From Bacillota bacterium (lineage in GTDB: Bacteria; Bacillota; Bacilli; Alicyclobacillales; SLC66): a DNA stretch of 39,834 nt. The notes beneath the pieces were generated by a model, which saw only the letters and a list, made by a program, of their open reading frames with translations, was not told the DNA's origin and did no database searches. Where the stretch lies: the NCBI GenBank assembly GCA_021793015.1, contig JAJYTO010000008.1, positions 1-39,834 of the forward strand, read 5' to 3'. Below, piece by piece: positions 10,318 to 38,925 of this stretch. The stretch's first letter is position 1. Each line of letters begins with the position of its first letter. A program made the position numbers and the translations under genes.

Positions 10318-10325
10318 TCGTTGCT

Positions 10326-10344
10326 CCCCCCTTTTTGAACAGGG
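10326..10344 (+). repeat. Right-end remnant of the MITE-like element
   Basis: CCCCCTTTTTGAACAGG followed by one base and TATAATG. It is the same right terminus seen at the end of the full copy at 10352-10504, but without the rest of an element to its left. It abuts the full copy, sharing the TATAATG sequence as the junction. Confidence 0.7.
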
Positions 10345-10351
10345 TATAATG

Positions 10352-10504
10352 GAGGTTGTTCAAAAAGGGGTCAGAACTCCCCGGCGCATTGCCGCGTCAG
10401 CGCCAAGAATGCTCTCTCACGTACCAAGAACGTACGCTCGGTCCGCATTCTTGGCTCGCTTCCTTGCACTGCGCGGGTCTTACCTGCCCCCTTTTTGAAC
10501 AGGT
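10352..10504 (+). mobile_element. MITE-like element, copy A (153 bp)
   Basis: Left end GAGGTTGTTCAAAAAGGGG, right end CCCCCTTTTTGAACAGG plus one base, giving imperfect terminal inverted repeats. TATAATG directly precedes (10345-10351) and follows (10505-10511) the element, as expected for a 7-bp target duplication. Inside are GTCAGAACTCC near the left end, GGGTCTTACCTG near the right end, a hairpin pairing CCAAGAATGC with GCATTCTTGG, and a central CGTAC/GTACG stem. It has no coding capacity. Related copies lie at 24299-24543, 31300-31491 (reverse) and, truncated, at 38894. Confidence 0.8.
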
Positions 10505-10511
10505 TATAATG

Positions 10512-10662
10512 GAGGTAGTCCGACAAGGGTCGAGAACTCCGCGCTTTAGGGGCTCGGCTTGCACCGAACAGGCGTGATCATGTACCGCGCATGAACACTG
10601 CGTTCGCCTGTCCGGGCTCGCCAACCCCCCGCAAGCGTCTTACCTCGACCCTTTTCCGACAC
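10512..10662 (+). mobile_element. Diverged sister of the MITE-like element (copy B)
   Basis: Begins GAGGTAGTCCGACAAGGG with GTCGAGAACTCC and ends GTCTTACCTCGACCC then TTTTCCGACA. Its layout parallels copy A (GAGG-T start, GAACTCC after the left repeat, GTCTTACCT before the right repeat), but the terminal repeats have a different sequence (GTCSGA...AAGGGTCGAG). It starts directly at the right TATAATG of copy A. A target duplication at its own right end is not obvious. Confidence 0.6.
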
Positions 10663-10703
10663 GTATTGACAGCCTACAGAAGTGTGTGGGGGCGGGGAAC
10701 ACG

Positions 10704-11729
10704 ATGCTTGTCCGAGAGATCGGCGAATTTGGCCTGATCAGGCGTTTGGCAGAGCTGGTTTCGCGGCCTGACCCGCGCGTGGCCGTGGGAATCGGCGATG
10801 ACGCGGCGGTCGTATCGTATGACGGACCAGTTGTGATGACAACGGATACTTTGGTCGACGGCGTTCATTTCCGTGATGACTGGATCGACGGGATTTCTCT
10901 GGGATATAAGGCTCTGGCCGCCAGTCTGAGCGACGTGGCCGCGATGGGTGGACGCCCCCGGCACGTTCTGGTGTCGCTCGCCATACCCGCCGAAGAACGG
11001 GTGGAGCGGATCGAATCCCTGTATCGCGGCATAAGAGAGGCGTCGGACGAATTTGCGGTGACTGTCGTCGGCGGCGACATCGTAAGCACAGCAGGTCCGC
11101 TCGTCATCACAGTCGCCGCGACGGGCGTCCTGGCGGGGTCGCAACCCTTGCGCAGGAACGGCGCAAGACAGGGCGATCTTGTCTTTGTCACCGGGGATGT
11201 CGGGGGCTCCGCCGCCTTTGTGCATCTTATGCGGACGGGCTATTCCGGCGCTTTGACCCCAACTGAGCAGTGGCAGCTGCAACAACGTCACACGCGCCCC
11301 AAACCGCAAGTTCGCGCGGTTGAGGCGCTCGTTCAGTGTCAGGGCTGCACTTCGCTCAACGACATCAGCGATGGGCTGAGCTCCGAATTGGCGGACATCG
11401 CCGAGGCCAGCGGAGTGCATCTCGACATCGACGGTGAACGTATTCCGATATTGCCCGCTGTGCGGCGCTATGCCCGTCTCGCAGGGCAAGAACCGCTCGT
11501 TTTTGCACTCCATGGCGGGGAGGACTACCAACTGGTCGGTACGGTTTCATCATTGTCGTGCGGCGCATTGCTTCCGCTCATGGAGGCATATGGCGTGCGC
11601 CTCACTCTGATCGGTCGCGTCGTGGATGGCGAACCTGGAGTTGATCTGCTGTCGGGGAACGGTCGCGAAGCGCTGCCGCCGCGGGGGTATGATCATTTTG
11701 CCGCCGCTCCAGACGGAGGTGTCGGATGA
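10704..11729 (+). CDS. thiL: Thiamine-monophosphate kinase
   Basis: Phosphorylates thiamine monophosphate to thiamine diphosphate with ATP, the last step of cofactor synthesis. About 341 residues, normal for ThiL. Family blocks are the N-terminal REIGEFGLIRRL, the metal/ATP site VAVGIGDDAAVV, TTDTLVDGVHFR, the LSDVAAMGGRPRHVLVSLA segment and VVGGDIVST, then INDISDGLSSELADIA (seen as LNDISDGLSSE) and LHGGEDYQLVGTV. ATG 10704 follows GGCGGGG by six bases; an in-frame GTG at 10686 would add six residues. The stop overlaps the tsaE start in ATGA. It heads the thiL-tsaEB-rimI-tsaD operon, an arrangement common in Bacillota. Tandem repeats lie just upstream. Confidence 0.95.
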   Translation: MLVREIGEFGLIRRLAELVSRPDPRVAVGIGDDAAVVSYDGPVVMTTDTLVDGVHFRDDWIDGISLGYKALAASLSDVAAMGGRPRHVLVSLAIPAEERVERIESLYRGIREASDEFAVTVVGGDIVSTAGPLVITVAATGVLAGSQPLRRNGARQGDLVFVTGDVGGSAAFVHLMRTGYSGALTPTEQWQLQQRHTRPKPQVRAVEALVQCQGCTSLNDISDGLSSELADIAEASGVHLDIDGERIPILPAVRRYARLAGQEPLVFALHGGEDYQLVGTVSSLSCGALLPLMEAYGVRLTLIGRVVDGEPGVDLLSGNGREALPPRGYDHFAAAPDGGVG

Positions 11730-24298: not shown

Positions 24299-24543
24299 GA
24301 GGTTGTTCAAAAAGGGGTCAGAATTCCCCTGCGCATTGCATCGTCAGCGCCAAAGGGAACTGTGATAAACCAGATTCCTGCGGGCGTCCAGTGGGACACG
24401 TCGGATCATATCGCCTGCCCAGCGGACTTTATCACTGCTCCCCTGGAATGCTTCCTCACGTACACAAAACGTACGCTCGGTGCGCATTTTTGGCTTGCTT
24501 CCTTGCACTGCGCGGGTCTTGCCTGCCCCCTTTTTGGACAGGC
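24299..24543 (+). mobile_element. MITE-like element, copy C (245 bp)
   Basis: Left end GAGGTTGTTCAAAAAGGGG, right end CCCCCTTTTTGGACAGG plus one base. ACTTATA flanks it on both sides (24292-24298 and 24544-24550), and with one more base the flanks read CACTTATA, so a 7- or 8-bp target duplication is clear. It shares GTCAGAA, GCGCATTGC, CGTAC...GTACG and GCTTCCTTGCACTGCGCGGG with copy A, but carries about 90 extra bases in the middle that include an inverted GTGATAAA/TTTATCAC pair. It has no coding capacity. Confidence 0.85.
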
Positions 24544-24673
24544 ACTTATACCATGTCTGTCCTACAAATTCAAACCAAGAGCACGAGCGGTACGAGCAAC
24601 GCCTCAAACGCCCGGGACGTCACCAAGCGAAAGAGGTCTTGCTACTTCTTCTAATGCCTTTTTAATATGAAGG

Positions 24674-31110: not shown

Positions 31111-31299
31111 ACGTCTGATCAAAAAAACGGATTCCGAAGACACGGAACCCGTTGCAGCGATCTTTGCAACCCGGCGATCATCGACATGCGTCTTTAGACC
31201 CGTGGCTTTGCGTCCGTACCTTTCGGCACGTTTGCCTATTATGTGTTTGTTGAATTGACTATATCACAATTTGATGAGAATCTGCATAGTTATACAAGA

Positions 31300-31491
31300 G
31301 CCTGTTCAAAAAGGGGGCTCCTCGCGCAGTGCAAGGAAGCGAGCCAAGAATGCGGACCGAGCATATGTTTTTGGACCGTGAGAGAGGATTCCGGGGGAGC
31401 AGTGATAAAGTCCTTGATGCAGGCGCAGTGATTTCAGTGGTGCTGACGCGGCAATGCGCCGGGGAGTTCTGACCCCTTTTTGAACAACCTC
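31300..31491 (-). mobile_element. MITE-like element, copy D (192 bp, reverse orientation)
   Basis: On the minus strand it starts GAGGTTGTTCAAAAAGGGG, with GTCAGAACTCCCCGGCGCATT as in copy A except it must be read in pieces, and ends CCCCCTTTTTGAACAGG plus one base. TACAAGA lies on both sides (31293-31299 and 31492-31498), a clean 7-bp target duplication. It shares the central TTTATCACTGCTCCCC segment with copy C but is about 50 bases shorter there. Confidence 0.85.
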
Positions 31492-38893: not shown

Positions 38894-38925
38894 GCCTGTT
38901 CAAAAAGGGGTCAGGTAAGCCCCGC
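38894..38925 (-). mobile_element. Truncated MITE-like element, copy E
   Basis: GCCTGTTCAAAAAGGGG followed by CAGGTAAG and CCCGCGC is the reverse complement of the right end of copy A. The homology fades after about 32 bases and no opposite end is found before 39023. It starts three bases after the ROK stop codon. Confidence 0.7.

Follow-up and report, generated by a model that had tools for sequence, protein, structure and literature searches.

Two elements joined end to end upstream of thiL

In the 39,834-nt stretch of a Bacillota genome that we analysed (the window), two repeats of equal length stand one behind the other just upstream of thiL, with the heptamer TATAATG at each junction. The locus raises the question of what these repeats are, what moved them, and what became of the thiL promoter when they arrived. 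The first-pass annotation had described elements A and B as joined end to end in a common layout, and reading the sequence confirmed both the junctions and the layout: each element starts with GAGG and carries AGAACTCC inside its left end and GTCTTACCT inside its right one. Facing ends are separated by exactly 5 bp, and a 60-nt direct repeat (83%) spans the two junctions of the A/B region. Mean identity between the A-core and B-core clusters is 55%. The features are as follows.

10347..10351, unstranded: TAATG, left target duplication of A, read from the sequence
10352..10506, + strand: MITE A (A-core, TTCA ends), 155 bp, from own-genome copies and duplications
10507..10511, unstranded: TAATG, right target duplication of A, at the junction with B and overlapping the second TATAAT (10505-10510)
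10512..10666, + strand: MITE B (B-core, worn TCCG-type ends), 155 bp, from own-genome copies
10667..10671, unstranded: TGACA, probable decayed right duplication of B (TAATG would be expected), suggested by comparison with the empty site in G002
24299..24545, + strand: further A-core copy with an extra central palindrome, TTATA on either flank
31298..31491, - strand: further A-core copy, diverged, TACAA on either flank

Both elements are abundant in their own genome (G000). We found at least 49 matches to A and at least 43 to B, counts that are lower bounds because each search scored 40 candidates; near-full-length copies make up about 20 of each, and the remainder are longer, split or diverged copies. 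The idea that B might be absent elsewhere, and hence unrelated sequence, is thus dismissed. We counted the 13-bp end pattern 136 times in the genome (0 for the reversed control), and 15 times in the window at up to 2 mismatches, where 2.7 are expected. Two substitutions within the 13-bp end core (TGTTCAAAAAGGG, TGTCCGAAAAGGG) separate intact B ends from those of A. The B copy in the window is itself worn, reading AGTCCGACAAGGG on the left and TGTCGGAAAAGGG on the right. A and B belong to two genuine MITE families, with about 20 near-full copies apiece in the draft genome. Elsewhere in the window, a lone A-type end, which runs into the first part of a core and looks truncated, lies at 38897-38909, and a c-di-GMP-I riboswitch (31162-31246, - strand) lies near the A-core copy at 31298-31491.

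Target duplications and nesting

We examined 155 distinct element places given by a pair finder within the labelled loci L001-L280, a set in which neighbouring ends may be cross-paired in a few cases. Setting the boundary 5 bp outside TGTYC gave exact 5-bp flank duplications at 84 of them, against a mean of 5.6 with right flanks shuffled; displacing the boundary by 1-4 bp left 0 or 1 identical flanks. The exact duplications therefore fix the boundaries of the elements. Their consensus is TWWWA (first T in 71/84, last A in 76/84), mostly with G or C immediately outside. The other 71 places lack an exact duplication. Most elements (100/155) measure 150-162 bp, and 16/155 are minimal forms of 47-48 bp, in which two ends enclose almost nothing (L065, L066, L075, L081, L166, L188, L192 and L196). 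Since 10 of these 16 have exact 5-bp duplications, minimal elements seem to be mobile as such.

The arrangement at thiL recurs. Across all loci examined there are 13 pairs of outward-facing ends less than 80 bp apart, six of them with a gap of exactly 5 bp, two with 6 bp and five with other values. Five of the six 5-bp cases belong to the own genome, two of them in the window; the sixth (L096, in G014) has no TWWWA site. Insertion would recreate a good target on both sides of an element, because the ends begin with GAG and the target is C-TWWWA-G. Nesting of another kind is seen in long A copies (window 24354-24445; L026, L028-L030, L032 and L033), which hold an extra palindromic insert at one point of the core, in most of them starting with GGGGAGCAGTGATAA. 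A similar sequence, GGACATGTGATAAAGTCC, occurs in the B copies L055, L056, L058 and L061. The end of this insert is found in 25 distinct contexts at up to 2 mismatches in the loci examined, and the insert is probably a third, nested MITE family.

The empty site and the promoter of the operon

The gene downstream is the first of the thiL-tsaE-tsaB operon, and the upstream region contains a candidate promoter.

10321..10326, + strand: TTGCTC, candidate -35 of the thiL promoter, 18 nt before TATAAT; the hexamer is identical in G001 and G002
10327..10344, + strand: promoter spacer of 18 nt, of which 10328-10341 is a perfect inverted match to the left end of A
10345..10350, + strand: TATAAT, native -10 of the thiL operon as judged by conservation
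10704..11729, + strand: thiL, thiamine-phosphate kinase (TIGR01379, 298 bits, cut-off 184)

Two genomes of the same genus, G001 and G002, have an empty site at this position. In G002 the same TATAATG is followed by TCCTACAG, and the G002 sequence GGGTATAATGTCCTACAG corresponds in the window to GGGTATAATG-A-TAATG-B-TGACA-GCCTACAG. Because the empty site carries TATAATG, this heptamer belongs to the host, and the repeats at the junctions arose from it by duplication. The existence of empty sites in relatives also supports past insertion.

The first-pass annotation had read the sequence left of A as a right-end remnant, which would make it what is left of an earlier, third element mostly lost to deletion. 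The match is perfect over 14 nt and sits 5 bp from A, as a neighbouring copy would, and isolated ends do exist elsewhere. Host sequence, however, lies on either side of it (GTTGCTCC and GGGTATAAT), and G001 and G002 hold host sequence of equal length here (TTGCTC, 18 nt, TATAAT), so that only 10328-10341 matches A and a deletion would need to restore exactly the 18-nt spacing. The window spacer is identical to each of these two genomes at 10/18 positions, and they share 16/18 with each other: 14 nt to the left of A are unlike the relatives and perfectly like the end of A, with length unchanged. A remnant thus seems unlikely to us, although it is the alternative to which we give most weight. 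A change of the spacer by conversion or template switching would fit better, in a comparison where G001 and G002 are other species.

Conservation points to the left-junction TATAAT as the operon's own -10. Among same-family relatives examined, a TATAAT lies within 115 bp of thiL in 10/12 and the full TTGCyS-N18-TATAAT motif is found in 8/12; the -35/-10 pair is missing in the other four, two of which have no TATAAT altogether. None of the seven other-family relatives shown has TATAAT at thiL; for an eighth there was no locus. TTGC at the -35 place accompanies 14 of the 550 TATAAT across all loci examined, thiL relatives included. The hexamer TTGCTC matches TTGACA at 3/6 positions, and a generic promoter scan called no promoter at the thiL site.

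It had been proposed that the TATAAT of each junction could serve thiL, and this reading is supported for the left junction, where the box is conserved together with its -35. The right junction does recreate TATAAT (10505-10510), which would make it conceivable that the elements brought in a new promoter and that this second box drives thiL. Yet the 18-nt upstream position has no -35 (1/6 matches), the promoter scan was negative, and the conserved -35 stays with the left box; we regard a new promoter as quite improbable. As for the wider set of insertions, a general preference of these MITEs for -10 boxes was not supported as a rule. At 83 rejoined sites there were 105 TATAAT-like hexamers where shuffles gave 85.3 (in the two bins at the site, 13 and 25 against 8.1 and 19.8). 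Requiring a -35 left 11 against 13.9, and exact TATAAT numbered 13 against 12.5.

A likely mobiliser of the IS1182-like group

Candidate transposases were taken as PF01609 loci from six genomes (30 of the 31 matches yielded a locus), and we scanned the flanking sequence for the MITE ends. In G005, L297/L311 is flanked by a TATTA duplication and has the paired ends GAGCGTGTCCGGAAAGC; a search with its protein gave matches in 22/41 genomes at E <= 0.001, many of them distant. In G044 the IS is present in 16 copies of 1636 bp with ends GAGGTTGTCCGAAAAGC and GAGCGTGTCCGAAAAGC and an open frame of 465 aa. Exact 5-bp duplications flank 14 of these 16 copies, or 15/17 when L311 is included. The 16 copies (L341-L360) are near-identical, apparently reflecting recent activity, and the left end of the MITEs has no exact match in G044. 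The IS sequence GAGGTTGTCCGAAAAG is the left end of intact B copies, and GAGGTTGTTCAAAAAG of L333 is the left end of A; about 16 bp of end is all that MITE and IS have in common.

The transposase matches NF033551 and the Pfam domains DDE_Tnp_1 and DUF772. Its scores of 109 and 109.7 bits lie below the curated IS1182 family cut-off of 270, which is why we call it IS1182-like only. Two transposases with TTCA-type ends (L312 and L333, each with a single end seen, and with a truncated frame in L333) are 90% identical to one another and 48-63% identical to eight transposases with TCCG-type ends, several of which are decayed or partial; L315 showed no end. The two transposase clades correspond to the two end types; this is a single end-type difference, and so amounts to few events.

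Since ends and duplications are common to both, this IS1182-like group is the likely mobiliser of A and B, which would move in trans. The MITE end occurs in 14/59 genomes and the IS (at 1e-30) in 8/59, with both in four (G005, G029, G032 and G037), counts in which single end matches may be chance. Protein search found no transposase of this group in G001, G002 or the own genome, a draft that is 92% complete in 321 contigs. Nor was a transposase seen between distant inverted pairs in the stretches scanned around unpaired ends of G000, G005 and other relatives and in at least 98 further stretches, whose open reading frames were inspected in part. Two candidates for an autonomous partner led nowhere, namely an 1165-bp pair of ends in L255 and an open reading frame in L143 that proved to be DUF2971. 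Plasmid and phage collections gave no match.

End types change on retained cores

The difference between the end types of A and B had been attributed to different transposases or to terminal-repeat swapping. One hundred full-length elements cluster into two cores, 41 A and 59 B, with identities of 0.87 and 0.88 within and 0.55 between them; the B copy of the window falls outside this set, its worn ends exceeding the mismatch limit. Cores were assigned by this clustering and cross-tabulated with end types over the 100 rows, copies being taken as fetched, in a sample that is not random. Records were merged with genome handles through matching contigs (WH4.bin32 is G005, JA1.bin52 is G001, I2511 is G032 and WH4.bin35 is G008), and clean1249 is probably G058, given identical match positions.

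In the own genome, ends track cores: all 18 A-core copies are TTCA/TTCA, and 18 of the 21 B-core copies are TCCG/TCCG, the other three being TCCG/TTCG, TTCA/TCCG and TCCA/TCCA. A-core copies are also TTCA/TTCA in G012 (4/4), G016 (1/1) and G001 (2/3). In three other genomes, all A-core copies have TCCG or TCCA left ends (3/3 in G020, 7/7 in G032 and 5/5 in clean1249, 15/15 in total), with TTCG right ends in 2/15. Conversely, B-core copies are TTCA/TTCA in G005 (35/37) and G001 (1/1); their left ends are TTCA in 38/38, and two right ends are unclassified. Among the genomes tabulated, B-cores with TCCG ends are found in the own genome only. Left and right end types agree in 90/100 elements, and the end types differ by two transitions per end within the 13-bp core. 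TCCA is a possible intermediate between TTCA and TCCG.

Because each core bears either end type across genomes, ends have changed while the core was retained. Both earlier suggestions thus survive in part: the end types do match two transposase clades, but cores carry other ends elsewhere, and changed ends are seen across genomes, while core and ends remain linked in the own genome. Two separate MITE lineages, each bound to a transposase of its own and with no end change on any core, would account for the linkage in the own genome, full for A and 18/21 for B. Unless cores were wrongly assigned, this is contradicted by the 15 A-core and 38 B-core copies with other left ends, and we hold it to be very improbable.

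Structure of the cores

The region 10352-10703 folds strongly (z -5.2), as expected of inverted repeats, and some stem pairs of the cores are changed on both sides. In the A core, cells changed on both sides numbered 21 against 8.5 in shuffles (0/500) and the covariation score was 0.175 against 0.089 (0/500), values that related sequences can drive above such shuffles; pairs with changes on both sides (5 against 4.1; 145/500) and pair types (13 against 13.1; 360/500) were not significant. These changes could come from selection on DNA or RNA hairpins, or from palindrome correction. The strong fold and the compensatory changes might suggest that we are dealing with conserved genes for regulatory RNA, or with attenuators, and not with transposons. 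This is scarcely credible in view of the empty site, the ends in common with the IS, the lack of any Rfam match at the elements, and the target duplications, which contradict it as a full account.

A proposed history of the locus

The window copy of A is 0.948 identical to 17 own-genome copies, which are 0.952 identical among themselves; for B these figures are 0.854 and 0.91 (21 copies). As B is further from its own family and its right duplication has decayed, we infer that B is the older insertion. The history that we propose is as follows. An IS1182-like DDE transposase group would move the non-autonomous A and B in trans, making 5-bp TWWWA duplications. B would have inserted first, and A afterwards, into the same TAATG within the TATAAT -10 of thiL-tsaE-tsaB, the site of B being deduced. 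Each insertion would copy 5 bp, leaving upstream a complete -10 that still stands at the old distance from its own -35. We therefore predict that the promoter survives and that the elements (about 315 bp) become a structured 5' leader. After the arrival of A, 14 nt of spacer would have been rewritten to the end of A, probably by template switching in a near-palindrome or by conversion from the other end of A. With the relatives that lack the -35/-10 pair and the single ends seen for the TTCA transposases taken into account, we consider this account as a whole to be probable.

A bolder and more tentative generalization, which we would rather doubt than accept in full, combines two claims. These MITEs would be modular, keeping a hairpin-forming core while both ends are re-tuned together to whichever of the two transposase clades works; and, at thiL, an element targeting TWWWA would have hit the -10 of the tsaE/tsaB operon, survived through the duplicated box and then rewritten the promoter spacer with its own end.

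The value of the system lies in its definition: cores, ends, target, likely mobiliser group and empty site make it a well-bounded MITE system in Alicyclobacillus-related Bacillota. It illustrates how an insertion into a -10 box can be survived when 5 bp are duplicated, here in an operon serving vitamin and tRNA metabolism, and it offers natural material for testing how MITE ends follow a changing transposase.

Comparison with known systems

We found no description of the A/B family in the open-licence literature (searched by end sequence, MITE with Alicyclobacillus, and IS1182 with MITE). A and B are new members of a kind already known, ordinary MITEs.

The transposase resembles the IS1182 family, e.g. 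IS1272 (PMC5678879), in its domains and in inverted ends of about 16 bp. According to that source, IS1272 reportedly makes no duplications and replaces inverted repeats, and the family is called heterogeneous. The IS described here differs in making 5-bp TWWWA duplications, exact in 15 of 17 copies, and in scoring 109 against a cut-off of 270; in a heterogeneous family, absence of duplications may not be a defining trait.

Correia elements of Neisseria, as described in PMC10969869, are likewise MITEs beside promoters, one lying just downstream of that of mtrCDE. Whereas they carry promoters or an IHF site, here the duplication copies the host's own -10. According to the same source, bacterial MITEs are short and non-coding, with inverted-repeat ends, target duplications, many copies and no transposase. 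A and B likewise are short non-coding elements with terminal inverted repeats, target duplications (84/155 exact) and multiple dispersed copies, and share 16 bp of end with an autonomous element, the IS1182-like IS of relatives. What sets them apart is that two cores of the same layout and length each occur with either end type.
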